Assembly (NCBI RefSeq): GCF_030128825.1
Contig: NZ_CP119128.1
Location: 124,001-188,000, forward strand
Length of the DNA stretch: 64,000 bases
Reading direction: 5' to 3'
From: Sphingobium sp. WTD-1
GTDB lineage: Bacteria > Pseudomonadota > Alphaproteobacteria > Sphingomonadales > Sphingomonadaceae
A model generated the notes under the pieces. That model saw only the letters and a list, made by a program, of their open reading frames with translations, was not told where the DNA came from and did not search any database. Shown in pieces: positions 17,972 to 42,428 of the stretch (its first letter is position 1; each line of letters opens with the position of its first letter). Both the position numbers and the translations under genes were made by a program.

Positions 17972-17972
17972 A

Positions 17973-18356: not shown

Positions 18357-18370
18357 TCCATCTCTCCGAG

Positions 18371-19378: not shown

Positions 19379-19417
19379 TATCCTACCCCTTACTCGGTGG
19401 TGAGCATGAAAACTGGG

Positions 19418-20451: not shown

Positions 20452-20463
20452 GTCATTTCTCCT

Positions 20464-25822: not shown

Positions 25823-26403
25823 AGCTGTTTCCCGGTGTTCCGCCCTTCCAGCGGTGGATGATGGCTACGACCTTTGTGGTGGTGGCAGTCTATTCCATCT
25901 CGCAGAACAAAAGCTCACTCGTCGAAGCGGCACAGACCAAACTCTCATCGCCCTCCCCACGGATTATCGATGGCGACACCGTGGATTTTCCCAACGGTCG
26001 GGTGCGCGTCGTCGGCATCGATGCTCCAGACGATGATCGTCCTCAACTCAAGGTATTGGCGAGCGAGGCGTTGCGCGGGTTGGCCGCCCGCGACGGCGGA
26101 TTGACCTGCTCAGTTTCGTTGTTCGATTATGCCCTGCGTCGCGAAGAGCAATGCCGCTCGTCCCCGAAGAGCTATGGGCGCCTGAACCTGTCATGCCGTT
26201 TCATCCGCAACAATGCCAGTGTGGGTGCGACAATGGTCGCACAGGGTTATGCGGTCGATTATCGCGCTTATTCCGGCGGAGCATATATGGATTTGATGCG
26301 CGACGCAGCGGAGCGCCGCGCTGGTTTGTGGGGCATCGACTATAACAGGATGAGAGAGCTGGCTATCCAGCGCGCGCGGCTTCCTGCCGGTTGTTCGAAA
26401 TAA
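25819..26403 (+). CDS. Staphylococcal-nuclease-like thermonuclease, exported or anchored
   Basis: A 194-residue SNase-family protein. A hydrophobic N-terminal segment (about residues 11-24, MMATTFVVVAVYSI) targets it to the membrane or periplasm. The SNase core shows IIDGDTVDFPNGRVRVVGIDAPD and VAQGYAVDYRAYSGGAY to GLWGIDY. Four Cys may form disulfides. The gene is common beside T4SS operons; a role in degrading incoming or released nucleic acid is inference. It is coupled to the primase-like gene. Confidence 0.85.
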   Translation: MKLFPGVPPFQRWMMATTFVVVAVYSISQNKSSLVEAAQTKLSSPSPRIIDGDTVDFPNGRVRVVGIDAPDDDRPQLKVLASEALRGLAARDGGLTCSVSLFDYALRREEQCRSSPKSYGRLNLSCRFIRNNASVGATMVAQGYAVDYRAYSGGAYMDLMRDAAERRAGLWGIDYNRMRELAIQRARLPAGCSK

Positions 26404-26430
26404 GTGCCACCCCATTCGGAGGTGGCACTT
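26402..26430. terminator. Hairpin between convergent nuclease and TonB receptor genes
   Basis: A perfect 10-bp stem AAGTGCCACC / GGTGGCACTT with a 9-base loop. It starts at the nuclease stop codon and lies between convergent genes, so it probably terminates both ways. Confidence 0.75.
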
Positions 26431-26434
26431 GAGT

Positions 26435-28639
26435 TCAGAATTCCAGACCAGCAGTAATGCCATACGTCCTTGGCGGAGCGTAGGTTGCTAGGATCAGTCG
26501 GCTTGTGGCGATGACGTAATTGGTGGAGTAGAAAGTCTTATCGAATATGTTCTTTGCCCATAGCGAGACGCTGATGTTACTCGGCATCCGATAGGTGACG
26601 GATCCATTCACCACCGTCCGTCCGCTTTGGGATGCACGTTCGTCATTGAACGGCGTGAAGTAGATCTTCGACTTGTAATCAACGTCGGCCGAAAGGGTGA
26701 TATCTCCCCCTGACGGAAGATCAGTCACATAGTTCCCGCGAAGGTTCATGGTCCATTCGGGGGCCTGCACGAGCCTATTGCCTTTCAGCGATCGCACCGG
26801 CGACGGCGGCGTTTGATCGAGTTCGAGTGGATTGGACGATGAGTAATCATCGAATTTCGCATCCAGGTAGCCGCCTGCGGCGGTCAGCGACAGGCCCTTG
26901 GCAGGCCGTAGCGTTGTCTCCAGCTCGATACCCCACGTTTTTGCTGAGGCTGCATTTTCGAAGATCGTGTTGATCGACGTGCCTGAGGCTGATGGGACCG
27001 ACTTACCAACTTGAAGGTCGGTGAACGTCGATCGGAACCCCGTCAGGTTGAAGGTCAGCATGTTCCCAAGAAGCGTGGTTTTCAAACCACCTTCCCAGTT
27101 CTCGACCGTTTCGGGACGAAGGATGGGATTGAGCTGCCCCGCAAGGATAATGCCGCTCTTGAAGCCTTTCGAATAGGTGCCGAAGGCAAGCACCCCTCGA
27201 ACGGGGCGCCATTCAATGGAAAGGCGGGGAGAGAAATTGTCAAAGCTGCCGCCCGGGCTGCTGAGGAATGTCCCGCCTGGGTTGATTGTCGTCGAGTTCC
27301 CGGTCCTCTTTTCATGGGTATAGCGGGCGCCCGCCGTGAGGCTGAGCTGATCCGTCAATTCATAGGTGGCTTGCCCGAAGACGGCCGCACTGCGGATATT
27401 TACGTCTCCCATGAAACGGACGCGCACGCTCTGCTGTGCCGGTGCAACATCGATGCCGGGATTCAGGCCGATCTGGTTGTCGCCGAAAAGATATTCGTCG
27501 AAATAAAAGGCCGAGACGAGTGCATTCAGTCGCTCAGTCGAAAGCGATAGCTGCAATTCCTGAGAAAATTGATGTCCGCGCGAGTAATTGTTCTGGCGCG
27601 TTGGGTTTTGCACCGCTGAGGCATCGAGATCCTGGAGCGGGTTGTTGTAGAATTTCCGGTAGTTGGTGATGGACTTGAGCGAAAGCAATTCGTTCAGCTC
27701 TGCGTCGAAAGTGCCCGTAACAGACCAGGTCTGTCGTTTGTTTCGGATCGGGCCTTCCGAAGCTATGTCCCGGATGTCAGTCGCATAGCCGCCTTGTCCA
27801 AGGCCATAAAGCGGACTGCCGACTGGCTGACTAGGGAATGACACTTCCTTGAAATGCAGGCCGTAGGCAGCGTCATCCTCATGGTGAAGCTCGCCGCTGA
27901 GCAGGAAGGATACGTCCGGTCCGAGGTCAAAATTCACTAGCGCGCGAATTGAGCGCTTGTTGGCGTCGTCGATGTCAGTGCCGATACGCGGATTTCGACC
28001 AAAGCCCGAGCGGTCCTCCGTGCGAATGGCCAATCGCGCCTGAACGCCGTTAGTAATCGGGCCGCCGACCGCTGCCTCGCCAACAATCTGGTCATAATTG
28101 CCATACGTCATGCGTATGTAGCCATTAAGGTCGTTGGTAGGCTTGCGCGTGATGAGGTTGATGACGCCGCCGGTTGAATTTCGACCGTAGAGCGTACCTT
28201 GCGGGCCACGCAGAACCTCGACGCGCTCCAGGTCGAAAAATGATCCGAGCTGGTTGATCGACTGCGAGATGACCGCGCCGTCGACATGCATTGCAACCGA
28301 CGGGTCTGCTCCAACGAAAACGTTATCGAGACCAACGCCCCGGATGAAAATCTGGGCAATGCCGAACTGCGTCCCGACTGACACATTGGGTACGATCGAG
28401 CCAAGTCCGGACACATCGTTGGTGCCGCTCGGGCCGATAAGATCGCCTCCAATGGCTGACACCGCTATCGGCACATCCTGAAGGCCCTGGGCACGCTTTT
28501 GCGCGGTGACGATGATGTCGCCAGCCTCCGCCTCCGGCATGGTGTTTTGTTGTGTGACCGCTTTGTCCTGTGCGTAAACAGGTGCTGCGATTGAAATACC
28601 CGCAGCGCACAGCATGGCGCTTGCCAGCCTCTTGCCCAT
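26435..28639 (-). CDS. TonB-dependent outer-membrane receptor
   Basis: A 734-residue TonB-dependent receptor. The signal peptide ends near PVYAQ (residue about 24). The plug domain shows GDIIVTAQKRAQGLQDVPIAVS and IRGVGLDNVFVGADPSVAMHVDG, and the barrel ends with the aromatic RTYGITAGLEF. This iron-complex-like subclass is highly expanded in sphingomonads, where several members import aromatic compounds. Its place beside an aromatic catabolic cluster suggests uptake of that substrate, which is inference. Confidence 0.92.
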   Translation of the reverse strand: MGKRLASAMLCAAGISIAAPVYAQDKAVTQQNTMPEAEAGDIIVTAQKRAQGLQDVPIAVSAIGGDLIGPSGTNDVSGLGSIVPNVSVGTQFGIAQIFIRGVGLDNVFVGADPSVAMHVDGAVISQSINQLGSFFDLERVEVLRGPQGTLYGRNSTGGVINLITRKPTNDLNGYIRMTYGNYDQIVGEAAVGGPITNGVQARLAIRTEDRSGFGRNPRIGTDIDDANKRSIRALVNFDLGPDVSFLLSGELHHEDDAAYGLHFKEVSFPSQPVGSPLYGLGQGGYATDIRDIASEGPIRNKRQTWSVTGTFDAELNELLSLKSITNYRKFYNNPLQDLDASAVQNPTRQNNYSRGHQFSQELQLSLSTERLNALVSAFYFDEYLFGDNQIGLNPGIDVAPAQQSVRVRFMGDVNIRSAAVFGQATYELTDQLSLTAGARYTHEKRTGNSTTINPGGTFLSSPGGSFDNFSPRLSIEWRPVRGVLAFGTYSKGFKSGIILAGQLNPILRPETVENWEGGLKTTLLGNMLTFNLTGFRSTFTDLQVGKSVPSASGTSINTIFENAASAKTWGIELETTLRPAKGLSLTAAGGYLDAKFDDYSSSNPLELDQTPPSPVRSLKGNRLVQAPEWTMNLRGNYVTDLPSGGDITLSADVDYKSKIYFTPFNDERASQSGRTVVNGSVTYRMPSNISVSLWAKNIFDKTFYSTNYVIATSRLILATYAPPRTYGITAGLEF

Positions 28640-28842
28640 AGATCCTCCCCGTTGTCGGTTTGTGGCGGGCGATACCTGCCACTCCGGCGTCGGAATTATT
28701 TCCTTTGCGCCGGTTTGCTTACGGTGGAGGCAATTACGCCAATCAACTAGAACGATAATATGGATAACATGAATCTATGAAACTTATGAGTTAGAGCGGC
28801 AGACGGTCGGCGTTTATAAACTGTTCTTCCGATACCATTGTT
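28640..28842. other. AT-rich gap between the LysR gene and the receptor gene
   Basis: About 200 bases upstream of the receptor gene, noticeably AT-rich between 28720 and 28830. It should contain the receptor promoter. I see no gene. Confidence 0.4.
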
Positions 28843-29778
28843 CTACCCAATTTCGGATTCAGAAGAGGGATCACGTCCGAGAAAGAGTTCCGAAATCAAC
28901 GCGCGCAGCCACAATATTGCCGGGTCGTGGTGGACCCGCCGATGCCAAAATTGCTGTAGCTCGATCGGAGGAATGGCCAGTGGCGGCGGTATTTGCCGGA
29001 GACCCGCAAGTTCGGCGTAGGTTGTGCCTACCGCTTTGGGTACGGTTGTAATCAAGTCCGATTTTGCGATCAGGAGCGGCGTGCTCACGAAATGGGGGGA
29101 CTGGAGCTGAATGTGGCGGGACAGTCCCTGTTGCGATAAGGTGCGCTCGAACAATTCCTGACTTCTGCCTTCCTGAGAGACGACCACGTGACCCAGGTTC
29201 AAAAACTGGTCGAGTGTAATCGTTGACCCGACTGTGGGATGGCCTGCCCTCACGAGGCAGACGAATGGATGTTCGAACAGCTTCTGCTTGTAGAATGCGG
29301 CGCCATCCAGGTCCGGAAAATATCCCAATGCCAAATCCACGATGCCTTCGGCCATGGCCCGCTCAAGATCTTCGGGCCTCATCGAATAGCAGCGGATGGT
29401 AGCCCCCGGTGCCCTTTGGGCCAGTGCTTGCATCAACTTAGGTATGAAGACCAACTCGCCGATGTCCGAAGTGGTAATTGCGAACCGTCGCTCGCTTCGG
29501 GCCGGATCGAACGATGGTGTTCGCAACAATTCCGTATCGACGGTGGCCAGGATCCGGCGAACAGGGTCACGCAAGCGTTCCCCGGTGGGCGTTGGCTGCA
29601 TCCGGTTGCCCTGGCGGACCAGAAGTTCGTCATTAAAGAATGTGCGCAGCTTCGACAATGCAAAGCTCACATTTGGTTGGCTAACCTTCAGGCGCCGGGC
29701 TGTCGCATTGACCCCCCGCTCTTCCAACAGAGCATCGAGAACGACAAGCAGGTTCAGATCGAGAGCACGGTAATCCAT
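28843..29778 (-). CDS. LysR-family transcriptional regulator
   Basis: A 311-residue LTTR. The N-terminal winged helix-turn-helix reads LDLNLLVVLDALLEERGVNATARRL then VSQPNVSFALSKLR (residues 7-50), followed by an effector domain with ALGYFPDLDG and FVCLVRAGHPTVG. It is close to the NodD/PcpR-like subclass that senses aromatic compounds. It is divergent from the aldehyde dehydrogenase gene across about 100 bases, the normal place for its operator. Confidence 0.92.
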   Translation of the reverse strand: MDYRALDLNLLVVLDALLEERGVNATARRLKVSQPNVSFALSKLRTFFNDELLVRQGNRMQPTPTGERLRDPVRRILATVDTELLRTPSFDPARSERRFAITTSDIGELVFIPKLMQALAQRAPGATIRCYSMRPEDLERAMAEGIVDLALGYFPDLDGAAFYKQKLFEHPFVCLVRAGHPTVGSTITLDQFLNLGHVVVSQEGRSQELFERTLSQQGLSRHIQLQSPHFVSTPLLIAKSDLITTVPKAVGTTYAELAGLRQIPPPLAIPPIELQQFWHRRVHHDPAILWLRALISELFLGRDPSSESEIG

Positions 29779-29814
29779 TTCACTAATATAGCCTATCAGA
29801 ATAAACAGAGATAC

Positions 29815-29838
29815 GGATAATTGCGAATTGCGCTATCC
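29815..29838. promoter_or_regulatory. Dyad in the LysR/aldehyde dehydrogenase intergenic region
   Basis: GGATA and TATCC arms 14 bases apart lie about 40 bases from both divergent starts, and an ATTGCG repeat sits between them. This could be a LysR-type binding site, but the spacing differs from the classical T-N11-A box. Confidence 0.35.
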
Positions 29839-29877
29839 TGACGTTGGTCAGCCCAGACTGACGCGAGAGGAGCGATG

Positions 29878-31374
29878 ATGGCGACGGTTACAGAAATCAA
29901 AAGCGACGCACAGGAAACTGGTGCGTGGCTCGGTTCGAACATCTGGGATGGTCGAGCATTCGATGGTGACTGGACGCCACTGCAAACCTCCGCAAACGTT
30001 CTTGAGCCTGCTACCGGTGCCGTCCTCGGATCGGTCGGTCTTGCAAGTCCTGAAGACATTCGGGCCGCTGCAGTAGCCGCCAAAAGTGCACAGAAGAGCT
30101 GGGCGGCCACTGGCTATGATGAGCGTGCTGCCATCCTTCGTGCTGCTGCTGCCGTGGCAGAGAAATATCGCGCCGAGATCGTCGACTGGATCGTGCGCGA
30201 GAGCGGCTCGATCATTGCAAAAGCCGAATATGAAGTCGCAGTGTCGATCAAGCTGCTGCACGAAGCCAGCGCGATGCCGAGCCAGGCATGTGGTCAGGTT
30301 CTGCCCTCCTCTCCGGGCAGGCTGAGCATGGCGCGCCGGCGTCCTCTCGGCGTTGTCGGTGTCATCAGCCCATTCAACTTCCCGCTTTATCTCGCTATCC
30401 GCGCCGTTGCGCCAGCGATTGCCGTGGGCAACGCTGTGGTCCTCAAGCCTGACCCACGCACTGCGGTTTGCGGTGGCTTCTCCATTGCTCGTATTTTCGA
30501 AGAAGCCGGACTCCCCAAGGGTGTGTTGCATGTTCTGGCCGGTGACGGTGCTGCAGGCGCCGCGCTTTGCAGCGATCCGGATGTCGCCATGATCCAGTTT
30601 ACCGGATCGACCGCCGCAGGCCGCAAGGTTGGCGAAGCGGCAGGACGACATCTCAAGAAAGTTTCACTGGAGCTGGGCGGCAAGAACGCGCTGATCATCC
30701 TTGACGATGCGGACATCGATCTGGCCGTAAAGGCCACAAAATGGGGTGCCTATCTGCATCAGGGACAGATCTGCATGGCGACCGGCCGCGTGCTGGTACA
30801 TGAGCGGATTGCCGAGCAGTTCACGAAGGCTCTAGCGCAGTCGGCCACGCAGCTTCCCGTCGGGGATCCAGCAAGCGGTCAGGTGGCTTTGGGGCCCCTG
30901 ATCAACGAGGCCCAGGTCGCCCATGCGACAAGGGTTGTTGAAAACAGCGTTGCGGCGGGTGCCACCATCGAAGCAGGTGGCACGGCCGACGGCTTGTTCT
31001 TCCAACCGACTGTCCTTTCAAACGTGCTCCCGGGCAATCCAGCGTTTGAGGAAGAAATTTTCGCGCCGGTTGCTGTCGTTACGCCCTTTGCCTCCGACGA
31101 GGAGGCTATCGCTATCGCCAACAACGGCGATTACGGCCTTTCCGCAGGCGTCATTACCGCGTCGCTGGAGCGGGCGCTTGCGTTCGCTGACCAATTGCAT
31201 GTCGGCCTCCTGCACATCAACGATCAGACCGTGAATGAAGAAGTGGTGAACCCGTTTGGCGGGACGGGAGCATCAGGAAACGGCACCAGCATCGGCGGCC
31301 CGGCCAATTGGGAAGAGTTCACACATTGGCAGTGGCTGACGATGCGCGGCGTAGTGCCTGCGTATCCGCTTTAA
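29878..31374 (+). CDS. Benzaldehyde/vanillin-type aldehyde dehydrogenase
   Basis: A 498-residue NAD(P)-dependent aldehyde dehydrogenase. It has FTGSTAAGRKVG for cofactor binding, the catalytic Glu in LELGGKN and the catalytic Cys in QGQICMA. The C-terminus reads HINDQTVNEEVVNPFGGTGASGNG, the pattern of benzaldehyde, salicylaldehyde and vanillin dehydrogenases (LigV/XylC relatives) rather than of short-chain enzymes. In this cluster it would oxidise an aromatic aldehyde such as 4-methoxybenzaldehyde to the acid. Of two adjacent ATGs the second (29878) has better spacing to GAGAGGAG. Confidence 0.93.
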   Translation: MATVTEIKSDAQETGAWLGSNIWDGRAFDGDWTPLQTSANVLEPATGAVLGSVGLASPEDIRAAAVAAKSAQKSWAATGYDERAAILRAAAAVAEKYRAEIVDWIVRESGSIIAKAEYEVAVSIKLLHEASAMPSQACGQVLPSSPGRLSMARRRPLGVVGVISPFNFPLYLAIRAVAPAIAVGNAVVLKPDPRTAVCGGFSIARIFEEAGLPKGVLHVLAGDGAAGAALCSDPDVAMIQFTGSTAAGRKVGEAAGRHLKKVSLELGGKNALIILDDADIDLAVKATKWGAYLHQGQICMATGRVLVHERIAEQFTKALAQSATQLPVGDPASGQVALGPLINEAQVAHATRVVENSVAAGATIEAGGTADGLFFQPTVLSNVLPGNPAFEEEIFAPVAVVTPFASDEEAIAIANNGDYGLSAGVITASLERALAFADQLHVGLLHINDQTVNEEVVNPFGGTGASGNGTSIGGPANWEEFTHWQWLTMRGVVPAYPL

Positions 31375-31401
31375 TCAATAAGAAGAAGGGACGAGAGGAA
31401 C

Positions 31402-32070
31402 ATGAAGGGTATTTGGGCTTCGCTCGCGGTCGCGAGCTGTTTCATGGCAGTGCCGGCCATGGCTCAGGATAACTCAGGGGACGATTTCAAACGGGTGATG
31501 ATCCGTGGCGGCTTTGCTTACCTGAAGTGGGATGAAGGAGCGTCCGTCAATGTGGGCGGACAGGTGGTGCCGGGTGGCACGACCCGCCTGTCCAATAACA
31601 AGGGGGTCGAAATCGATGTCTCCTATTTCCTGCATCCCAACGTTTCGGTGGCAGTCGCCGTAGGCGTGCCACCCACAACGACGCTCTATGGTGCTGGAAC
31701 GCTGGAATCCGCCGGTGAGCTGGGCAAGGTCACATACGGTCCCGGATCGGCGACAGTCCTGTATCACATCACGGGTCTCGGCCCGGTGAAACCGTATCTT
31801 GGCGCCGGCGTCAACTACACGATCATCTTCAAGACGAAGGATCGGCTCCTGCAGGATTTCAAGGCCAAGGACACGGTTGGCCCGGTCCTTCAGGGGGGCG
31901 TGGACATCGCCCTAAACAAGAGCTTCGGCATCTATTTCGATGCCAAGAAAATTTTCGCCACGTCGGATACCACGTGGAAGCTGCCCACGCCTGCGGGTCT
32001 CGCGCCTGGCACCGCGAAGGTCAAGCTCGACCCCCTCGTGCTCAATGCCGGCGTGTCATTCCGGTTCTAA
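31402..32070 (+). CDS. OmpW-family outer-membrane protein
   Basis: A 222-residue outer-membrane beta-barrel with a signal peptide ending VPAMAQ. OmpW features include [38 protein letters not shown] and a final [10 protein letters not shown] ending in Phe. OmpW/AlkL proteins form a small hydrophobic channel that admits non-polar compounds. Between two aldehyde dehydrogenase genes it likely admits the hydrophobic substrate. Start supported by GAGAGGAA upstream. Confidence 0.9.
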
Positions 32071-32080
32071 GGATCAAATC

Positions 32081-33598
32081 ATGAACAAGCCCGAGACATT
32101 CTTCAACGTCGCGCATCCCTTCAAGGCTCAGTACGATAATTTTATCGGAGGGCGATGGGTGGCGCCGGTGGAAGGCCGGTATTTCGACAACAGCACGCCG
32201 ATCACCGGGGAAGTCGTTACGAGCGTCGCTCGTTCTTCCGCTGCAGATGTCGAGCTAGCGTTGGACGCCGCCCACCGCGCGAAGGATGCCTGGGGCCAGT
32301 TCAGTCCTGCCGAACGCGCTCTGGTCCTCAATCGTATCGCTGATCGGATGGAGGAAAATCTTGAGCTGCTCGCTACGGCTGAAACATGGGATAACGGCAA
32401 GCCGATCCGGGAAACGCTCGCGGCGGACATCCCACTCGCGATTGACCATTTCCGCTATTTTGCGGGCTGCATCAGGGCGCAGGAAGGCGGTATTTCGGAG
32501 ATCGACCACGATACCGTCGCTTATCACTTCCATGAGCCGTTGGGTGTCGTAGGCCAGATCATCCCTTGGAACTTCCCGCTTCTGATGGCCTGCTGGAAAC
32601 TGGCCCCTGCAATGGCTGCCGGCAATTGCATCGTCCTCAAGCCTGCGGAGCAGACCCCGGCCTCCATTCTCGTCCTGATCGAGCTGATTGCCGACATCGT
32701 GCCACCAGGCGTGATAAACGTCGTCAATGGCTTTGGCGTCGAAGCAGGCAAGCCACTCGCTCAGTCGCCTCGCATCGCGAAGATCGCCTTCACAGGTGAA
32801 ACCACGACGGGCCGGCTCATCATGCAATATGCCACGGAGAACCTGATCCCGGTTACGTTGGAGCTGGGCGGCAAAAGTCCGAACATCTTCTTCTCCGATG
32901 TGATGGCCGAAGACGACGATTATCTCGACAAGGCCATCGAAGGCTTCGCCATGTTCGCGCTCAATCAGGGCGAGGTATGCACCTGTCCGAGCCGCGCGCT
33001 TGTCCATGAGAGCATCTATGACAGGTTCATGGAAAAGGCGATCCGTCGCGTTGAGGCAATCGTGCAGGGCAATCCGCTCGACCGCTCGACCATGATCGGC
33101 GCGCAGGCATCGTCGGAGCAGCTGGAAAAGATCCTCAGCTACTTCGACGTTGGTCGCAATGAAGGCGCAAAAGTGCTGACCGGCGGCGAGCGTGCGACTT
33201 TCGATGGTCCTCTTGCTGGAGGCTTTTATGTCAAGCCGACCGTTCTCGCCGGGCATAACCGGATGCGGGTGTTCCAAGAAGAAATCTTCGGCCCTGTCGT
33301 GTCGGTAACGACCTTCAAGAACGACGAAGACGCCTTGGCGATTGCGAATGACACCCTCTACGGGCTTGGCGCCGGTGTGTGGACCCGCGACGGTAGCCGG
33401 GCTTATCGTATGGGCCGGGGCATTCAGGCCGGTCGGGTGTGGACCAATTGCTATCACGCTTATCCGGCGCACGCTGCTTTCGGTGGCTACAAGCAGTCGG
33501 GCATCGGTCGCGAAAATCACAAGATGATGCTGGACCACTATCAGCAAACGAAAAATCTGCTGGTAAGCTACAGCCCGAAGAAGCTCGGCTTCTTCTGA
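32081..33598 (+). CDS. ExaC-like acetaldehyde/aliphatic aldehyde dehydrogenase
   Basis: A 505-residue aldehyde dehydrogenase close in pattern to the NAD-dependent acetaldehyde dehydrogenase of ethanol oxidation (ExaC, about 506 residues). The opening [19 protein letters not shown], the catalytic Glu in LELGGKSPN, the Cys in [12 protein letters not shown] and the end [14 protein letters not shown] are all typical. It is followed by a DUF779 gene, a pairing well known for this enzyme type. A short aliphatic aldehyde is therefore its likely substrate. An AAGGAT ribosome site precedes the ATG. Confidence 0.92.
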
Positions 33599-33612
33599 TC
33601 GGCCTCTGAGCG

Positions 33613-33966
33613 ATGACACATCAGTCCGCAACCCATTCGATCCAGGCTACCCCGGCCGCGCTCGCTCTGATCGCGCAGATCGAAGAGGAGCATGGCGAGC
33701 TGATGTTTCATCAATCCGGGGGATGCTGCGATGGCTCCTCACCCATGTGCTACCGCAACGGGGAGTTGCGGGTAGGCGACGGAGACGTGCTGCTTGGCAC
33801 GGTCGGCACTGCCCCTTTCTACATCGGCAAGGCGCAGTTCGAGCAGTGGGGCCGACCGCAACTGTTGCTCGACGTTGTGCCGGGCCGAGGAGGCATGTTC
33901 TCTTTGGACAATGGCCGACAAGTCCGCTTCCACATTCGCCCCAAAACAAAAACGCAGGAGAGCTGA
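33613..33966 (+). CDS. DUF779 protein, aldehyde dehydrogenase partner
   Basis: A 117-residue soluble protein with the DUF779 signature HGELMFHQSGGCCDGSSPMCY and a Cys pair that may bind a metal. DUF779 genes are commonly found next to acetaldehyde dehydrogenase genes of the ExaC/AdhB type, as here, 14 bases downstream. The molecular function is unproven. Confidence 0.9.
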   Translation: MTHQSATHSIQATPAALALIAQIEEEHGELMFHQSGGCCDGSSPMCYRNGELRVGDGDVLLGTVGTAPFYIGKAQFEQWGRPQLLLDVVPGRGGMFSLDNGRQVRFHIRPKTKTQES

Positions 33967-33967
33967 G

Positions 33968-35029
33968 ATGGCAACCCAACACTTCGATCCAGATACGAGT
34001 GCAGCCGCTGCACCCATTCCTCCCGCAGCAAATAAAGCACCGGGAACGGAGAGCTATAAGCAGCGCCGAAAGTGGATCGCCGACCGAATTGAGTCCCTCG
34101 ATCCGGAGGTGGACTATAGCGAGATCTGGCGTCTGACGACCTGTTACTACGTCGATGATATGTTCATGAACATCATCTACACGACGGGAATCCAGAATTT
34201 TACATTGCCGCCTGCCGGCACGATCCTGCTGACCAACAAGGGCCGTGGACCCATCGTTTCACGTCCGGAAGACCGCGCATATGAAACACTGCGCCACTTC
34301 TGGGCTTGGTTCGAATACGGACCTGACAGCCCTTATGTTCAGGGTTCCGTCGAGCGGGTCAACAAGGTGCACAAGTCGATGTCGCGCGTGTTGCCCGGTG
34401 CGTTCCCGGCCCGCGATTTCATCTATACCGCAGGCTGGACCTGCTGCGACGTCCATCGTCTGTTCGTCGGGCTGGGCCTCAAGGGCTTCAGCGAGAAGCA
34501 GAAAGCCGGCGCACATCGTTACTGGCAGAAGCTCATGTCCTATTTCAAGGACGAGGACGGCAATCCGATCGCCTTTCCCGAATCCTTCGATGCCACGGTG
34601 CAGTATCTGGAGGAATATGAGGCCCACGAATGGCCACGCGTTCCTACCGGCAAGGTTTGTGCTGACGCGCTGACTGACCAATATGCCCATGACTGGTTCC
34701 CGCGCGGTTTTCGCTGGCTCGGACGTCAGGTGATCCTCTCGCTTCAGAAGCCGCGCACGCGCGCGATCATGAACATGGATGAGCCGAACCCCATTCTGAA
34801 GCCCATCATTCGCGGCGGCATCGCCGCCTTCATCTGGATGAAGATGAATGTACTGGCTGATCCCAAGCTGTCGACGCCGGAAAAGGCCCGGCTGAAGGGA
34901 CAGATCAAGGGCCAGCATCAGCCTGCGCCGACCGAAAAGGTGTCGGCATGCCCTTACCACAATCGGGTGCCGCTTGATGTGGCTACCCAGATCCCCGGCC
35001 CTGCCGGATATGTAGGATATAAGAATTGA
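33968..35029 (+). CDS. MpaB-family oxygenase (DUF2236)
   Basis: A 353-residue protein of the oxygenase MpaB family, which includes haem-b latex-clearing protein Lcp and mycophenolic-acid MpaB. Visible segments are [49 protein letters not shown] and [17 protein letters not shown], with His residues spaced as in haem-binding members. It has no signal peptide. It is the only enzyme in the cluster that could attack a C=C side chain, so it may cleave a propenyl-benzene to two aldehydes. That role is inference. The ATG lies one base after the DUF779 stop; its own stop overlaps the ferredoxin ATG by one base. Confidence 0.88.
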
Positions 35030-35343
35030 TGCAGTTGATGATCCGCACCAGAGAAGGAGAAGAGCGCAGCGTCCCGGCGTCCGAAGGGGTTTCCGTGATG
35101 GAGATCGTTCGTGATGCCGGTGTGGACGAGCTTCTCGCCCTTTGTGGTGGCTGCTGCTCGTGCGCGACCTGCCACATCTATGTCGATGATGCGTTTGTGG
35201 CCGCCCTGCCCGCCATGACGGCCGACGAAGACGACCTCCTCGACAGTTCGGACCATCGCCGCCCCAATTCGCGGCTTGCCTGCCAGATTCTCTTCAACGC
35301 GCAGCTCAACGGGCTGCCTATCGAAATCGCTCCGGAGGACTGA
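35029..35343 (+). CDS. [2Fe-2S] ferredoxin of a Rieske O-demethylase
   Basis: A 104-residue plant/vertebrate-type ferredoxin. Ligands are Cys39, Cys45, Cys48 ([11 protein letters not shown]) and Cys85 (SRLACQI), the CX5CX2C...C pattern. The sequence around [15 protein letters not shown] and LLDSSDHR closely recalls DdmB, the ferredoxin of dicamba O-demethylase, which passes electrons from an FAD reductase to the oxygenase. It sits between the MpaB and oxygenase genes, which fits that role. Confidence 0.93.
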
Positions 35344-35347
35344 TCCC

Positions 35348-36415
35348 ATGACCCGCGCCGCCAACGCCGATCACGAACCGTTTCTGTACGACGCCTGGTA
35401 TGTCGCAGGCTGGGCAACAGACCTGAAGCCCGGTGAGCGCATCGGTCGAACCTTTCTTAATCAGCCCATTGTCCTTTTCAGGACGGCATCGGGGGATGTC
35501 GGGGCGCTGGAGGATCGCTGCTGTCACCGTGCCATGCAGCTGAGCCACGGCCATGTCGAGGGTGAGATTTTGCGTTGCACCTATCATGGTCTTGAGTTCG
35601 GCACGGATGGCATTTGCTCGCGCATTCCTGCGCAAGAGAAGATCCCCAAGACCGCCTGCGTCCGCAGCTACCCTCTGGTCGAGCAGGATGCCATGCTCTG
35701 GATCTGGATGGGCGATCCCTCAAAGGCCGATGCCGAACGTATCCCGTCCCATCACTATCATAACGATCCGAAATGGGCTTGGCGCGGCGCGCATTTCCCG
35801 GTGAATGGCAATTGGGAATTGCTGGTCGACAATCTGATGGATCTATCGCACCTGCCTTATATCCATCCCAACACCATCGGCGGCAATCCCGAGCTTCATT
35901 TCAAGACGAAGACGGAGACGACAAAGCTGCCCAATGGGGTCAAGGTCGAGCGCCGTATGCCTGCCTCTGTCCCGCCTCCGACCTATATCGATGCCAAGGG
36001 GTTCAAGGGGCTGGTCGATCGCTGGCAGGAAATCGAGTTCATGCCGGTCATGATCCGCATTCATACTGGCGCCTGTGATGTCGATACAGGGGCCTATGAA
36101 GGCAAGCGCGACCATGGTTTCTCCATGCTCGGCTTCCACGGCATCACGCCTGAGACGGAGCGGACAACGCATTATTTCTGGTCAATGGCGACCAACATCC
36201 TCGACGGCGATATTCCCGATGTCGTGTTCGAGCAGACCGCCCGAACCTTCAAGGAGGACCAGGAGGTTCTAGAACTGCAGCAGGTTCGCATGGAAGCCGA
36301 CCCCAACCGGCCCTTGATCGACATTGCAAGCGATGTCGGCGGGCGGCAGGCTCGCCAGCTCATTCGCAAGCTGATCCGCGCGCAGCATGAGGAAGAGGCG
36401 CGCGAAGTAGCATGA
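35348..36415 (+). CDS. Rieske non-haem iron monooxygenase, aromatic O-demethylase type
   Basis: A 355-residue oxygenase component. The Rieske cluster ligands are Cys58, His60, Cys77 and His80 (CCHRAMQL and CTYHGLEF). The mononuclear iron site reads N162, D165, H168 and H173 in DNLMDLSHLPYIH, with the same spacing as dicamba monooxygenase DdmC. Length and C-terminus also fit DdmC/VanA-type O-demethylases, which turn Ar-OCH3 into Ar-OH plus formaldehyde. With the ferredoxin before it and the reductase after it, this is a three-component system. Presence of pobA downstream points to 4-methoxybenzoate as substrate (inference). Confidence 0.93.
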   Translation: MTRAANADHEPFLYDAWYVAGWATDLKPGERIGRTFLNQPIVLFRTASGDVGALEDRCCHRAMQLSHGHVEGEILRCTYHGLEFGTDGICSRIPAQEKIPKTACVRSYPLVEQDAMLWIWMGDPSKADAERIPSHHYHNDPKWAWRGAHFPVNGNWELLVDNLMDLSHLPYIHPNTIGGNPELHFKTKTETTKLPNGVKVERRMPASVPPPTYIDAKGFKGLVDRWQEIEFMPVMIRIHTGACDVDTGAYEGKRDHGFSMLGFHGITPETERTTHYFWSMATNILDGDIPDVVFEQTARTFKEDQEVLELQQVRMEADPNRPLIDIASDVGGRQARQLIRKLIRAQHEEEAREVA

Positions 36416-37665
36416 GCGACACGCCCCACTATGATGTCCTGATTGTCGGTGCAGGCCACGCAGGCGGTCAGGCTGCCATAAGTCTTCTGCAGGCGGGCTT
36501 CACCGGCTCAATCGGTATAGTGGGGATGGAAAACCATCAGCCCTATGATCGCCCGGCATTGAGCAAGGACTATTTCTCCGGGGCGAAGACCTTCGAGCGG
36601 CTGATGTTACGTCCACCGGCCTTCTGGTCAGAACGCGGTATCACATTCCATCATGACCATCAGATAGTAGCAATTGAACCGCAGACGCGGCGGATTGTGG
36701 CGCTGGATGGGGCAATGTTCCGCTACGAAACCTTGATTTGGGCGGCGGGCGCAGATCCCCGCAACCTCTCCTGCCCGGGAGCAGGGTATGCTGGCGTTCA
36801 CACGATCCGCAAACGAGCGGACGTCGACCGAATGCTGGCGAACCTCGATACGGTTCAGCATGTTGTTGTCATTGGCGGCGGCTATATCGGCCTCGAAGCC
36901 GCCGCTGTGCTGCGAAAGTTCAATAAGGACGTGACCCTTTTGGAAGCCCAGGATCGGCTTCTGGGGCGCGTGGCAGGGCCGACCCTGTCGGCTTTCTTCG
37001 CAAGCGAGCATGTCGCGCATGGTGTCGACGTCCAGCTTGGCGCACAGGTCGCCGCGCTGGAAGGAAATGAAGGGCAGATCGAAACTGTCGCGCTATCCGA
37101 TGGACGCAGACTGAAGGCGGATATGGTGATCGCTGGGATTGGCGTGATCCCGGCAGTGGGGCCGCTTGAACAGGCTGGCGCATATTGCGCCAACGGCGTT
37201 GTGGTTGACGATTGCTGCCGGACGAGTCTCGAAAACATCTATGCGATCGGTGACTGCGCCCAGCATCAAAATCCTTTCGCGGATGGTGCTGCAATCCGCC
37301 TCGAATCCGTCCAGAATGCCAATGATATGGCCAAGATCGCTGCCCTGTCGATTGTAGGAAAACCCTCTACGGGGCGGGACGTGCCATGGTTCTGGTCGAA
37401 CCAGTATGACATCCGTCTTCAGACGATCGGCCTGCTTACGGGATATGACGAGGAAGTCATCCGCGGCGATCCCGCATCCCGCAGCTTTTCAATCGTCTAT
37501 CTCAAGGACGGGAGGGTCAAGGCTCTCGACTGCATCAATGCCACAAAGGACTATGTGCAGGGTAAGGAGCTTGTCCTGAAGGCAGCACTGCTGCCCGCTT
37601 CGCTGCTGGCCGATGGGACGGTGCCTCTCAAGACGATGCTTGCTGAGACTGCGGAGCACGCCTGA
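36412..37665 (+). CDS. FAD-dependent ferredoxin reductase
   Basis: A 417-residue NAD(P)H:ferredoxin reductase of the rubredoxin/putidaredoxin reductase family. It has VGAGHAGGQAA for FAD, YDRPALSKDYF, the second Rossmann motif VVIGGGYIGLEAAAVL for NADH, and YAIGDCAQH. Length matches DdmA-type reductases (~408). Its ATG overlaps the oxygenase stop by four bases, so all three redox components are co-translated. Confidence 0.93.
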   Translation: MSDTPHYDVLIVGAGHAGGQAAISLLQAGFTGSIGIVGMENHQPYDRPALSKDYFSGAKTFERLMLRPPAFWSERGITFHHDHQIVAIEPQTRRIVALDGAMFRYETLIWAAGADPRNLSCPGAGYAGVHTIRKRADVDRMLANLDTVQHVVVIGGGYIGLEAAAVLRKFNKDVTLLEAQDRLLGRVAGPTLSAFFASEHVAHGVDVQLGAQVAALEGNEGQIETVALSDGRRLKADMVIAGIGVIPAVGPLEQAGAYCANGVVVDDCCRTSLENIYAIGDCAQHQNPFADGAAIRLESVQNANDMAKIAALSIVGKPSTGRDVPWFWSNQYDIRLQTIGLLTGYDEEVIRGDPASRSFSIVYLKDGRVKALDCINATKDYVQGKELVLKAALLPASLLADGTVPLKTMLAETAEHA

Positions 37666-37715
37666 CCAACAGAATATGATTTGGGTCTTGATCGATCAAA
37701 ACAAGGAGAGAGTGT

Positions 37716-38900
37716 ATGAGCGGCAATCGCGGAGTGGTGTATGTCGGGCCCGGCAAGGTTGAGGTCCGTGACATCGACGACCCGAAGTTCGAGGATCCGC
37801 GCGGGCGGAAGATCGAACATGCCGTCATTCTCAAGATCCTGGCCACGAATATCTGCGGATCTGATCAACATATGGTCCGGGGCCGCACCACTGCCCCCGA
37901 AGGTCTGGTTTTGGGCCATGAAATCACCGGTGAGGTGATTGAAAAGGGGGCCGATGTCGAAATGCTCGATGTCGGCGACATCGTTTCCGTCCCCTTCAAT
38001 GTGGCCTGCGGCCGCTGTCGCACATGCCGCAACGGCGACACGGGTGTTTGCCTGACCGTGAACGATGGCCGGGCGGGCGGCGCTTATGGTTATGTCGACA
38101 TGGGGGGATGGATTGGCGGGCAGGCCCGTTATGTCATGATCCCCTATGCCGACTTCAACCTCCTGAAGTTTCCTGACCGCGATCGTGCGCGCGCTAAGAT
38201 TCGTGACCTCACAATGCTGACGGACATCCTGCCCACCGGCTTCCATGGTGCGGTGAAGGCAGGTGTCGGTGTCGGCTCGACGGTTTATGTTGCTGGCGCC
38301 GGCCCCGTTGGTCTTGCCGCAGCGGCGTCAGCGAGGATCCTTGGTGCCGCTGTTGTCATGATCGGTGACTATAACAAGGACCGGCTTGAGCACGCCCGCA
38401 AGGTCGGCTTCGAACCGATTGATCTGGGTTCGCACGACCGTCTTGGTGAATTGGTCGCCAATGTCACCGGGGCACCCGAGGTTGATTCAGCGATCGACGC
38501 TGTAGGCTTCGAGGCCGTGGGGCATAGCGGAAAGGAACAGCCCGCTGCGGTCCTCAATCAGATGATGGAAATTACCCGCGCCGCCGGCTCCATTGGTATT
38601 CCCGGTCTTTACGTAACCGAGGATCCTGGCGCGGTCGAAGAGAGCGCGAAGACGGGGAATCTCAGCCTGCGGCTTGGGTTGGGCTGGGCGAAGTCCCAGA
38701 GCCTGCATACCGGCCAAACCCCGGTGATCCGTTATAATCGGCAGCTCATGAATGCGATCCTGTACGATCGGCTACCAATCGCTGACATCGTGAACGCGCA
38801 GGTTATCGGTCTCGAAGAGGCCCCGACGGGATATGAAACTTTTGATCGCGGTGCTGCGGTAAAGTTCGTCATTGACCCGCATGATGCGATTGCCCGTTAA
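37716..38900 (+). CDS. fdhA: Glutathione-independent formaldehyde dehydrogenase
   Basis: A 394-residue zinc medium-chain dehydrogenase. The catalytic zinc region is CGSDQHMVRG and GHEITGEV; the structural zinc Cys lie in VACGRCRTCRNGDTGVC; the NAD motif is VAGAGPVGLAAAAS. The overall pattern, including GGAYGYVDMGGWIGGQARY, matches the Pseudomonas putida enzyme (398 residues) that oxidises formaldehyde without glutathione. It would remove the formaldehyde made by the demethylase just upstream. AAGGAGAG precedes the ATG. Confidence 0.93.
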   Translation: MSGNRGVVYVGPGKVEVRDIDDPKFEDPRGRKIEHAVILKILATNICGSDQHMVRGRTTAPEGLVLGHEITGEVIEKGADVEMLDVGDIVSVPFNVACGRCRTCRNGDTGVCLTVNDGRAGGAYGYVDMGGWIGGQARYVMIPYADFNLLKFPDRDRARAKIRDLTMLTDILPTGFHGAVKAGVGVGSTVYVAGAGPVGLAAAASARILGAAVVMIGDYNKDRLEHARKVGFEPIDLGSHDRLGELVANVTGAPEVDSAIDAVGFEAVGHSGKEQPAAVLNQMMEITRAAGSIGIPGLYVTEDPGAVEESAKTGNLSLRLGLGWAKSQSLHTGQTPVIRYNRQLMNAILYDRLPIADIVNAQVIGLEEAPTGYETFDRGAAVKFVIDPHDAIAR

Positions 38901-39031
38901 ATCTCCCGAGACGTCGGGGCTGTGGCAGCTTTTGGAATAGACGCTGCCATTCCATTCCGCACGATTGGCGAACCGTCGATCAGATAGTACCAACTGCAGG
39001 CCTGATCGACGGCATCGTTATTCAAGGGGCC
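38901..39031. terminator. Convergent gap after fdhA with a weak hairpin
   Basis: Between fdhA and pobA a 7-bp stem TGGCAGC/GCTGCCA (38923-38949) encloses a T-containing loop. It may end both transcripts. The signal is weak. Confidence 0.4.
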
Positions 39032-40201
39032 TCAGACAGGAAGCCCGACATAGTTCTCGGCAATCGAGCGCTGCGCGGATTCGCTCGATGCGATATAGTC
39101 CAGCTCGGCAACCTGAATGCGACGTTCGAAGTCGCCATCGTCGGGGAAACGATGCATCAGCTTGGTCAGTGACCAGCTGAAACGCTCGGCCTTCCACACA
39201 CGAGCAAGCGCCTTTTCCGAATATGCCGCAATCGCGTCCCCGTCGTTGTTCTTGAAAAACGCCGTCAGGGCTTCAGCGGCGTAATGGACGTCGCTGGCGG
39301 CCAGGTTGAGGCCCTTGGCACCGGTTGGCGGCACGATATGCGCGGAATCGCCACAAAGTAGCAGGCTGCCATAGCGCATCGGTTCGAACACGAAGGAGCG
39401 TAGCGGGGCGATCGACTTCTCGATCGATGGGCCGCGCGTGATATGCGCTGCGGCTTCCGGGCCAAGGCGCACACTTAGTTCGTCCCAAATCCGATCATCG
39501 CTCCAGTCCTCGACCTTCTCGGTCACCGGAACGTCGATATAGTAGCGGCTGCGCACGTTGCTGCGCTGGGACGCAAGGGCGAACCCGCGATCGTGGTTGG
39601 CATAGATCAGTTCGTGATTGCACGGCGGCACATCGGCCAGGATGCCGAGCCATCCAAAGGGATAAACCCGCTCGAATGACCGTGCGATTGAGGCAGGAAT
39701 TGCCTGTCTGGACGGGCCATGGAATCCGTCGCAGCCAATGATAAAGCGCGCATCTACCTGATGATCGGCGCCATCCTTGGTATAGGTAACGAAGGGCGCA
39801 TCGCCTTCGATATCGTGCAGGGCGACGTCGGCAGCCTCATAGATCACTTCCAGCCCGCGCGGTCCGGCGGCTTCCATGAGGTCGCGCGTCAGTTCGGTCT
39901 GCCCATAGACCATGACCTGCTTGCCCGTCAGGGCCTTGATGTCGATGCGGATTAGGCGCTCGCCATCGGCAAGATTGAACCCGTCATGTGGAAGGCCCTC
40001 CGCTTTCATGCGCGCGTCCAGGCCCAGGCGCTCCATAAGCCCAACAGTGACCTGTTCCAGAACGCCAGCACGGATGCGCGATAACACGTAAGGTCCGGAC
40101 TGGCGTTCGATAACCACGCAGTCGATACCTTCGGCTTTGAGAAGATGGGCGAGGAGCAGGCCCGCAGGGCCAGCGCCGATGATCGCAATCTGAGTTTTCA
40201 T
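39032..40201 (-). CDS. pobA: 4-Hydroxybenzoate 3-monooxygenase
   Basis: A 389-residue flavoprotein hydroxylase, the usual length for PobA, converting 4-hydroxybenzoate to protocatechuate with NADPH and O2. The FAD motif is IIGAGPAGLLLAHLL, followed by ERQSGPYVLSRIRAGVLEQ, the DG motif GCDGFHGPSR and the GD motif GDSAHIVPPTGAKGLNLA. The active-site Tyr/Pro region YYIDVP is present. The Met at 40201 begins the FAD-binding strand directly, so the longer frame to 40264 is not used. It is divergent from the AraC gene. Confidence 0.95.
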   Translation of the reverse strand: MKTQIAIIGAGPAGLLLAHLLKAEGIDCVVIERQSGPYVLSRIRAGVLEQVTVGLMERLGLDARMKAEGLPHDGFNLADGERLIRIDIKALTGKQVMVYGQTELTRDLMEAAGPRGLEVIYEAADVALHDIEGDAPFVTYTKDGADHQVDARFIIGCDGFHGPSRQAIPASIARSFERVYPFGWLGILADVPPCNHELIYANHDRGFALASQRSNVRSRYYIDVPVTEKVEDWSDDRIWDELSVRLGPEAAAHITRGPSIEKSIAPLRSFVFEPMRYGSLLLCGDSAHIVPPTGAKGLNLAASDVHYAAEALTAFFKNNDGDAIAAYSEKALARVWKAERFSWSLTKLMHRFPDDGDFERRIQVAELDYIASSESAQRSIAENYVGLPV

Positions 40202-40253
40202 GAGAATGTCTCCACCGCGGCACGCTCTCCTCCGGCGTGTTCGCTTTCCCCTT

Positions 40254-40268
40254 AGAATTGACAATTCT
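40254..40268. promoter_or_regulatory. Palindrome in the pobA/araC intergenic region
   Basis: A perfect inverted repeat AGAATTG-A-CAATTCT lies 52 bases before pobA and 54 bases before the AraC gene, and contains a TTGACA that could serve as a -35 box. It is a good candidate operator for the divergent pair. Confidence 0.5.
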
Positions 40269-40322
40269 CCACCTGTTCGAGAAGAGACGGCGAGGTCATA
40301 TCGCTGGTACTTTTAGGACAGG

Positions 40323-41165
40323 ATGATGCAGAACTCCGCGATACCCAGCTTTGTGCTCTACGGCGAAATGCTGAGCGACAATGTGCCGGAATTCGCCCAT
40401 ATTGAGACGATCGCTACTCGTAGCGCGCTCTATGATTGGGAAATTTCTCCCCATCGGCATCTGCGCAGTGTCCAAGCTTTGCTGTTGTCTAGCGGACAGG
40501 TTCAATTTCGCTGTGACGATCATATCAACGACTTGGCTGCCCCCTGCTACATGATTGTGCCGATCGGCAGCGTCCATGGGTTCCGATTTACGCCAGAGAC
40601 CGCCGGGCATGTGCTGACACTCTCGGCAGGCTTTACATCTCGGGCGGTGGGTAGCAACGATCCCCTGCTGCGTTTGCTTACGCAAGGGGCCTGCGGAGCA
40701 ATTCCCGATGGGAATATCGCGAGAGTCTCCTGGTTGTGCAACGAAATGCTTGCCTGCCAGTCTGACTGGCGGGCACCGGATCCGTTGTTCATGGCGCTCG
40801 CAGAAGCGCTGGTTCGATCGCTACCGGCACCATTGAAGGATGACAGCGCTGATGAAGAGCGCTTAGTCGCGTTCCGACGCCTGATAGAAATCCATCTGCG
40901 CGAGCATCACGCAGTCGCTTGGTATGCGCAGCAACTCAATATCACCACCAAGACACTCACAAGAATTTGCCGCCGCAAACTCGATTGCACACCAACCGAA
41001 TTGATACATCAAAGGCTATTGCTGGAGGCGCGCCGTTTGCTGGGCTTTACGAATGCAAGTATCGTTCAGGTGGCGGATCAGCTGGGCTTCTCGGACAGCT
41101 CCTATTTTTCGCGCTTCTATCGCCGGATGACGGGGCACCGCCCATCGATTGATAAGAACCCATGA
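40323..41165 (+). CDS. pobR: AraC-family regulator, PobR/HpaA-like
   Basis: A 280-residue regulator with an N-terminal cupin-type effector domain (LYDWEISPHRHLRSVQALLL) and a C-terminal AraC DNA-binding domain with two helix-turn-helix units (residues about 195-275, ending FSDSSYFSRFYRRMTGHRPS). It is divergent from pobA, as is the AraC-type PobR/PobC that activates pobA in response to 4-hydroxybenzoate. ATGs at 40323 and 40326 are both possible. Confidence 0.88.
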   Translation: MMQNSAIPSFVLYGEMLSDNVPEFAHIETIATRSALYDWEISPHRHLRSVQALLLSSGQVQFRCDDHINDLAAPCYMIVPIGSVHGFRFTPETAGHVLTLSAGFTSRAVGSNDPLLRLLTQGACGAIPDGNIARVSWLCNEMLACQSDWRAPDPLFMALAEALVRSLPAPLKDDSADEERLVAFRRLIEIHLREHHAVAWYAQQLNITTKTLTRICRRKLDCTPTELIHQRLLLEARRLLGFTNASIVQVADQLGFSDSSYFSRFYRRMTGHRPSIDKNP

Positions 41166-41234
41166 TGGTTGGCGTTGGATGCCTGCTCCTCTTCATTACT
41201 GCACTTTCGCATAGTCTATTCTTTGCGCCACAGT
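41166..41234. other. Junction between the catabolic island and the plasmid leader
   Basis: Immediately after the AraC gene the sequence passes into leader copy 1. About 70 bases hold no feature that I can name. This is the likely right edge of the catabolic segment. Confidence 0.4.
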
Positions 41235-41492
41235 CCTCCCCCGGAGGCCCGCCAGCGCCGGGGGAACACCAAGGGCTACTGCCCTTTCGTTCCCGAACGA
41301 CAATCGTGCCCCCCGTGTAATCCGCCAAGCACAGTGCCCGATGCCTGTGACGGCATCGACCGCGCTAAGGCGGCTCGCCCGCGCCAGGCGCAAGATTCTC
41401 GCCCTCCCTCCCCATCCCGTTCCTCGCCGGAAGGGCAGAGCCGCATGCCGCAGAGCAAGCGGCTTTCAGCCTCAAGAGGAAAGGACGAAACA
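41235..41492 (+). repeat. Long leader repeat, copy 1 (upstream of ardC)
   Basis: About 258 bases ending at the ardC ATG. It shares blocks with copies 2 (44777-45049) and 3 (49891-50116): CCTCCCCCGGAGGCCCG, GGGGAACACCAAGGGC, CCCTTTCGTTCCCGAA, CCGCCAAGC, CGGCTCGCCCGCGCCAG, CTCCCTCCCCATCCCGTTCC and, with copy 2, GGCAGAGCCGCATGCCGCAG. No protein is conserved through it, so the DNA or RNA itself is probably what is kept. Confidence 0.9.
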
Positions 41493-42428
41493 ATGGGACG
41501 CATCACTGACAACCGGGCCGACGTCTATCAGGACATCACCGACCAGATGATCGCCATGATCGAGGCAGGCACCCGGCCTTGGTCTAAATCATGGAACGGG
41601 ACCACCGCGCCCAACATCCCGCTGCGTTCGACTGGCGTTCCGTATCGCGGCATCAATATCCTGACCCTTTGGGTGGCTTCCATGACAAAGGGCTATGCCT
41701 CGCCGCATTGGCTGACCTTCAAGCAGGCGCTGGCGCTGGGCGGCTGTGTTCGCAAAGGCGAGAAGGGATCGACCGTTGTCTATGCCAACAAGATCGTCGT
41801 GGGCGATGGCAAAGGTGGAGAACAGGGCGGCGAAGCGGGTGGTGAGGGCAAGCGGCAGGTTGCGTTCCTGAAGCGCTACACGGTGTTTAACGCCGAGCAG
41901 ATCGACGGCATCGAGGCGCAATATCCTGCCCCCGCGCCGATCATCACCGCCACCAATCCCGATGACCGGGACGCCGAGCTTGACGCGCTCTTTGGCCGGG
42001 TGCCCGTCACGGTGCGCCATCATGGTGCGCAGCCCTATTACCAGCCAAGCGGCGATCATGTCGTCATGCCGCATTTTGCCGACTTCCATACCAGCGACGA
42101 TTATTATTCGACCCTTGCCCACGAACTATGCCACGCCAGCGGCCATCAGGACCGGCTTGCCCGTCAAACCCTCCTTTCCACGAAGCGCGAAGATTATGCG
42201 CGGGAGGAACTTGTCGCTGAATTGGGGGCCGCTTTCGTCAGCGGGGCGATCGGCATCAAATTGCATGACCGCGAAGATCATGCCGCTTACCTGTCGAGCT
42301 GGCTTGCAGCGCTGCGCAATGACAAGCGGTGCATCTTCACTGCCGCGCGCCATGCACAGGACGCAGCAGACTGGCTGTTGAGCCATATGGGCGCAGAGCA
42401 GGCAGCCACGCTGGAGGAGGCAGCCTGA
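41493..42428 (+). CDS. ardC: ArdC-type antirestriction protein
   Basis: A 311-residue protein with the N-terminal ssDNA-binding DUF1738 domain (YQDITDQMIAMIEAGTRPWSKSW, about residues 11-33) and a C-terminal zincin-like metalloprotease domain with the HExxH motif in TLAHELCHASGHQDRL near residue 213. ArdC protects incoming single-stranded plasmid DNA from host restriction. It directly follows leader copy 1. An AAGAGGAAAGGA ribosome site precedes the ATG. Confidence 0.92.
   Translation: MGRITDNRADVYQDITDQMIAMIEAGTRPWSKSWNGTTAPNIPLRSTGVPYRGINILTLWVASMTKGYASPHWLTFKQALALGGCVRKGEKGSTVVYANKIVVGDGKGGEQGGEAGGEGKRQVAFLKRYTVFNAEQIDGIEAQYPAPAPIITATNPDDRDAELDALFGRVPVTVRHHGAQPYYQPSGDHVVMPHFADFHTSDDYYSTLAHELCHASGHQDRLARQTLLSTKREDYAREELVAELGAAFVSGAIGIKLHDREDHAAYLSSWLAALRNDKRCIFTAARHAQDAADWLLSHMGAEQAATLEEAA

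Follow-up and report, generated by a model that had tools for sequence, protein, structure and literature searches.

A candidate anethole-degradation island with a three-component Rieske demethylase on a probable plasmid of Sphingobium sp. WTD-1

The pathway by which Pseudomonas putida JYR-1 degrades anethole, the compound behind the aroma of anise, is reportedly known in its main lines, and the structure of a t-anethole oxygenase from Stenotrophomonas maltophilia has been solved (8s1j). The standard O-demethylase for 4-methoxybenzoate (p-anisate) is CYP199A4, of the CYP199 family of P450 enzymes, which act on para-methoxybenzoates. Here we describe a 14.7-kb island (26435-41165) within a 64,000-nt stretch of Sphingobium sp. 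WTD-1, referred to below as the window (positions 124001-188000 of C2, a replicon of 449,985 bases that accompanies the chromosome C1 of 5,078,332 bases). Judging from its genes, the island is very probably a self-contained plasmid module that converts trans-anethole, or a close 4-methoxy-propenylbenzene, to protocatechuate. While the outline of such a pathway is already known, the variant here is the three-component, LysR-linked demethylase within an anethole module.

In the pathway that we propose from the gene families, homologies and motifs observed in the island, and from the linkage observed in other bacteria, an enzyme of the trans-anethole-oxygenase family would cleave the propenyl double bond to give p-anisaldehyde and acetaldehyde. 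The former would be oxidised to p-anisate by the aldehyde dehydrogenase (ALDH) encoded at 29875, here ALDH1, and the latter to acetate by ExaC, together with a DUF779 protein, a usual neighbour of ExaC-type dehydrogenases. A three-component Rieske enzyme would then strip the O-methyl group from p-anisate, yielding 4-hydroxybenzoate, which PobA would convert to protocatechuate, and formaldehyde, which would be oxidised by FdhA; the protocatechuate ring would be opened by the chromosomal LigAB. From the same gene set we infer which substrate is used and what the regulators, OmpW and the TonB receptor do, the latter two presumably acting in uptake. All 13 genes that an earlier note on this DNA had named are present at the stated place; the gene families of all but the oxygenase come from Pfam profiles and, for 10 of the 13 proteins, NCBIfam profiles (Table 1). 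The nine genes from 29875 to 38900 share one strand and are separated by small gaps or overlap, with TGATG at 35027-35031 as an example, an arrangement expected of a single operon.

The predicted side-chain cleaving enzyme, which the earlier note had proposed to compare with characterised propenylbenzene oxygenases, shares homology over some 300 residues with the solved t-anethole oxygenase 8s1j (E 1.8e-85, residues 35-331 of 354). The two are 42-45% identical over about 275-300 residues and alike in fold in a structure model, although the window oxygenase has a longer N-terminus. Its previous description as "MpaB-type" is borne out by fold but not by profile: the next fold neighbour of 8s1j is the latex clearing protein (Lcp), and the window oxygenase has the Lcp-like fold of the MpaB/latex clearing protein superfamily, but PF09995 had no match in it or anywhere in the whole genome, and the oxygenase is without any Pfam match. 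R103, T107 and H135 are invariant across nine aligned sequences, with a spacing resembling that of R164, T168 and H198 of Lcp, and the protein is probably a heme oxygenase of the trans-anethole-oxygenase family. Such genes are rare among its kin: four of 397 genomes of the family match, including its own, the best other match being 31% identical, and among 61 relatives the only match is the window's own genome.

The gene set is more than a chance assembly, since it recurs in part around oxygenase homologues elsewhere. Homologues came from plasmid records (18 matched and seven opened, including six of the seven with at least 39% identity), genome contigs (12 loci) and genome samples, and 24 loci were searched with the island proteins together with the P450, VanB, Rieske and ALDH proteins encoded at L006 and L007, which therefore match themselves. 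Among the ten loci whose oxygenase is at least 39% identical (L005, L006, L007, L008, L009, L011, L013, L014, L015 and L019), all ten have a Rieske or P450 match, in some cases only pieces (in L013 the P450 is interrupted by the contig end), seven have an ALDH and six have PobA, which in L005 is spread across two frames. As a control, nine loci that span 14 kb or more and whose oxygenase homologues are more distant (L010, L016-L018 and L020-L024) gave counts of 0/9 for Rieske or P450, 2/9 for ALDH and 1/9 for PobA (L016); five loci below 4 kb (L002-L004, L028 and L029) were excluded from the counts as too short. In L016 (3542-6648), from Actibacterium naphthalenivorans, a 31% oxygenase homologue lies beside a PobA that is 63% identical to that of the window.

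The position of the methoxy group is suggested by the linked loci. The P450 of a Rhodococcus locus, L007, is a CYP199 (9g9q, E 5e-237; CYP199A4, E 3e-146), and the P450s in the remaining four Rhodococcus loci share 54-94% identity with it, CYP199 identity having been tested in L007 only. CYP199 and PobA in linked loci point to 4-hydroxybenzoate as an intermediate, as vanillate would bypass PobA. One may also consider that the island serves isoeugenol or methylisoeugenol, cleaved to vanillin or veratraldehyde and followed by a vanillate- or veratrate-type demethylase, given that VanA_C is the C-terminal domain of the Rieske oxygenase and that ALDH1 matches vanillin dehydrogenase 9ihb (299 bits). 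We regard this as unlikely, because vanillate demethylation yields protocatechuate directly and would leave PobA idle, yet PobA is found in six of the ten linked loci; moreover, CYP199 serves in a Rhodococcus locus, and ALDH1 scores higher against 4-hydroxybenzaldehyde dehydrogenase 9jw2, its best solved relative (373 bits). The anethole-type interpretation of the earlier note is supported by the homology of the oxygenase to t-anethole oxygenase, by the recurrence of a partial set in Gammaproteobacteria and Rhodococcus, and by a protocatechuate 4,5-dioxygenase on the chromosome.

The earlier argument that there is a dehydrogenase for each predicted aldehyde also holds, in that ALDH1 resembles 9jw2, ExaC has counterparts linked to the oxygenase in Acinetobacter johnsonii (74%) and Pseudomonas koreensis (67%), and FdhA has one in the P. 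koreensis locus (70%), where an OmpW relative (34%) is found as well. ALDH1's best plasmid relatives are 61.5-68.6% identical, with a benzaldehyde dehydrogenase annotation in 10 of 12 among the matches listed, and the ALDH cysteine and glutamate motifs are intact in both ALDHs. ExaC and FdhA score above the cut-offs of their equivalog profiles (Table 1), FdhA also matching 4jlw (624 bits), and the DUF779 gene adjoins "adh" in several plasmid records. The R. pyridinivorans locus has an S-(hydroxymethyl)mycothiol dehydrogenase by annotation. It is quite unlikely that the core is an anisate/4-hydroxybenzoate operon whose oxygenase cleaves another alkenyl arene, such as 4-methoxystyrene or a stilbene, still to p-anisaldehyde. 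Oxygenase homologues of 30-33% identity in L017, L018 and L028 (only 3.7 kb) do adjoin an ALDH with no demethylase match, possibly as alkene-cleaving pairs, and a range of alkenes may be cleaved across the wider family; but the placement of ExaC and DUF779 immediately ahead of the oxygenase, and the linkage of ExaC in two Gammaproteobacteria, fit a two-carbon aldehyde by-product, which would not arise from a styrene.

PobA likewise exceeds its equivalog cut-off (Table 1), matches 1pbb (512 bits) and, by our own count on an alignment to 1pbb, retains all six substrate-contact residues (Y201, S212, R214, Y222, P293 and Y385). PobA and its AraC neighbour have 90% and 77% identity, respectively, with a pobA-AraC pair on the Novosphingobium plasmid pP6W1, a pair that sits near ligA and other protocatechuate genes. 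Since C1 encodes LigA (C1:1772030) and an adjoining LigB, the protocatechuate 4,5-dioxygenase, the chromosome could open the ring.

Several observations weigh against a trans-anethole module. An identity of 42-45% to 8s1j does not settle substrate preference, and four of the ten linked loci are without PobA (the decayed L011, L014 and L015, and the 6.1-kb contig L013). Nor are the ten loci independent: L011, L014 and L015 seem to belong to a single lineage, the five from Rhodococcus are related to one another, and the grouping of demethylase-linked oxygenases in a single clade is weakly supported (74/66). The P. koreensis and A. johnsonii counterparts of ALDH1 reach only 42% and 37% identity, and the five Rhodococcus loci give ExaC matches of only 35-37%, no OmpW match, and an FdhA match of only 26% in one. 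A second PobA on C1 (63% identical) means that the plasmid copy is not strictly needed, and we know of no bench precedent for a three-component Rieske 4-methoxybenzoate demethylase.

The Rieske oxygenase has intact motifs (C-x-H-x16-C-x2-H from residue 58 and mono-iron DxxHxxxxH from 165), with the DdmC-type Rieske and 2-His-1-Asp iron ligands, the Asp standing opposite D294 by our count on the DdmC alignment; all four cysteines of the ferredoxin are kept. The best solved relative of the Rieske oxygenase is DdmC (3gb4, 162 bits), the homology to the oxygenase of dicamba O-demethylase DdmABC is full length, and DdmABC has the same three-component make-up, with ferredoxin and reductase. That the island is a herbicide pathway with a dicamba-type O-demethylase is nevertheless highly improbable. 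Of N230, H251 and W285, dicamba-contact residues of DdmC, our alignment count finds only H251 kept, with N230 replaced by H and W285 opposite a gap; the genomic context differs, and the closest relatives sit with LysR, mostly by plant-glycoside hydrolases (seven of ten loci).

The Rieske oxygenase is 47% and 45% identical to its P. koreensis and A. johnsonii counterparts, which group apart as a supported clade (97/100), and closer to sphingomonad proteins, with 65-74% in its own chromosome and in genomes G388, G402, G416, G398 and G408, in all six of which a LysR homologue is divergent from the oxygenase (in two frames in G402). The window LysR is 61-69% identical in five LysR-Rieske loci of other sphingomonads and 50-51% in two more. 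Fourteen plasmid records match the oxygenase at 60-80%; of five opened, the four from sphingomonads carry the LysR and the Roseomonas plasmid had no match to it, nor had seven opened loci with a Rieske oxygenase at 51-54%. In the closest operon (L077 8197-14511, in G388) the order is LysR, Rieske oxygenase, a second Rieske oxygenase, FdhA, ferredoxin and reductase, and G408 (L081 8703-13230) agrees with it as far as FdhA, close to the end of the contig; an anethole-type oxygenase had no match in these two same-genus genomes. The L077 proteins are 74% (Rieske oxygenase), 82% (FdhA), 59% (ferredoxin), 54% (reductase) and 51% (LysR) identical to those of the island, but the operon has a second Rieske oxygenase, no anethole-type oxygenase and a different order, while in the island ALDH1-OmpW-ExaC-DUF779-oxygenase-ferredoxin is placed between LysR and the Rieske gene. 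By these comparisons the LysR, FdhA and demethylase genes resemble an operon that sphingomonads also carry in the absence of the oxygenase, and not the PDR/VanB-type set of the gammaproteobacterial loci, and the demethylating enzyme seems to have been recruited locally. The module may have been joined in a sphingomonad from what look like three sources: the LysR-Rieske-FdhA-ferredoxin-reductase operon and the pobA-AraC pair, both of sphingomonad origin, and a portion comprising oxygenase, ExaC and OmpW that is shared with Gammaproteobacteria.

The palindrome between LysR and the operon, as CTRAT-N7-ATCAG, has its sole exact match in the window there (0.14 expected; at least one match in 9 of 100 shuffles). 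A similar site with at most two mismatches occurs in 8 of 11 LysR intergenic stretches, against a background of 0.05 per 100 bases, for a motif derived from the same loci it was scored on; it is absent in L038, L078 and L077, the closest operon. As a LysR operator the palindrome is suggestive only.

On C1 itself (L043 7805-17540, about 947.8-957.5 kb) a LysR-Rieske pair related to that of the window, its Rieske paralogue at C1:948870-949898, lies near an alpha-L-rhamnosidase (GH78), a GH1 glycosidase and a TonB receptor, as in seven of the ten LysR-Rieske loci outside the window (L043, L037, L038, L039, L078, L079 and L080), GH78 being Pfam-checked in L043 only. These loci might encode a pathway for 4'-methoxyflavonoid rutinosides, e.g. 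linarin, diosmin or hesperidin. We tentatively suggest, with somewhat less than even confidence, that the sphingomonad LysR-linked Rieske clade demethylates para-methoxyaryl compounds, some of its members acting for such rutinosides, and that in this island a member of the clade, along with its LysR and operator, was put to new use in driving the anethole operon. If true, this would be the third independently recruited anisate demethylase in anethole modules, after Rieske enzymes with a PDR/VanB-type reductase and CYP199.

Table 1. Features of the island (window positions); starts of ExaC, oxygenase, ferredoxin, Rieske oxygenase and PobA are the likelier start codons, read from the sequences
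Feature	Position	Strand	Evidence or remark
TonB-dependent receptor	26435..28639	-	PF00593 174 bits, Plug 53 bits; pathway membership uncertain
LysR-type regulator, divergent from operon	28843..29778	-	PF03466, PF00126
Interrupted palindrome CTAAT-N7-ATCAG, candidate operator	29783..29799	.	between LysR and operon
Aromatic aldehyde dehydrogenase (ALDH1), predicted p-anisaldehyde dehydrogenase	29875..31374	+	PF00171 509 bits
OmpW-family outer-membrane protein, predicted uptake	31402..32070	+	PF03922 96 bits
ExaC acetaldehyde dehydrogenase	32081..33598	+	NF050026 955 bits, cut-off 900
DUF779 protein	33613..33966	+	PF05610 138 bits
trans-Anethole oxygenase homologue, predicted side-chain cleavage, 353 aa	33968..35029	+	similarity to 8s1j
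[2Fe-2S] ferredoxin of demethylase	35029..35343	+	PF00111 (Fer2) 33 bits, four-cysteine motif
Rieske O-demethylase oxygenase, predicted 4-methoxybenzoate demethylase	35348..36415	+	VanA_C 154 bits, Rieske 74 bits
Ferredoxin reductase of demethylase	36412..37665	+	PF07992, PF14759 (Reductase_C)
Glutathione-independent formaldehyde dehydrogenase FdhA	37716..38900	+	TIGR02819 693 bits, cut-off 637
PobA, 4-hydroxybenzoate 3-monooxygenase	39032..40201	-	TIGR02360 633 bits, cut-off 539
AraC-type regulator, divergent from pobA	40323..41165	+	PF12833

We read C2 as a plasmid because it carries Trb-type conjugation genes (TrbI, CagX, TrbL and TrbE/VirB4 families, window 15239-22854) and encodes a ParB-like protein. 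The island is flanked by a thermonuclease-like gene (25819-26403) and an ArdC-type open reading frame (41169-42428), and it looks like cargo because the sequence on either side matches the backbones of plasmids from other sphingomonads. In relatives the slot corresponding to 26403-41169 holds a Shedu nuclease and an ATP-dependent endonuclease (Sphingomonas insulae) or toxin-antitoxin genes (two Sphingobium plasmids), and it looks like an accessory site of this backbone. Tn3-family transposases at 9251-12202 and 55388-58306 bracket the conjugation genes and the island, and a Fic-domain gene (50891-52171) and IS21-type genes (53126-55218) also lie in the window. Elsewhere, the A. johnsonii module (L006 711-22236) is bordered by genes annotated as Tn7-like, with TnsE at one end and an AAA ATPase, a Mu-type transposase and TnsA at the opposite end; this may account for the spread of that copy. 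The decayed Acinetobacter copies (L011, L014 and L015) retain a shortened oxygenase, of about 190 aa in L015, and a 124-residue Rieske fragment, and that of L011 lies between IS3-family transposase genes.

As predicted from its genes, the island would give a sphingomonad all the genes needed to degrade a natural phenylpropene. It also supplies a candidate for a 4-methoxybenzoate demethylase of the three-component Rieske type, and a candidate new alkene-cleaving oxygenase of possible use in making aroma aldehydes. The steps proposed are those reported for P. putida JYR-1, from anethole through anisaldehyde, anisate and 4-hydroxybenzoate to protocatechuate, although the host here is a sphingomonad and the likeness is one of pathway steps. 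The loci of P. koreensis P19E3 p1 and A. johnsonii pXBB1-8 share with the island the oxygenase, a Rieske oxygenase, a second ALDH, ExaC and PobA (in two frames in P. koreensis), in addition to FdhA and OmpW matches in the former and OmpW by annotation in the latter. Their demethylase, however, adjoins a PDR/VanB-type reductase, whereas the island has a separate ferredoxin, a Reductase_C flavoprotein and a LysR regulator. The five Rhodococcus loci have the oxygenase, an ALDH and a PDR/VanB reductase in all five and PobA in four, but use a P450 where the island uses a Rieske enzyme. This suggests one catabolic idea, an alkene-cleaving oxygenase combined with PobA, served by three demethylase systems across Alphaproteobacteria, Gammaproteobacteria and Actinomycetota.

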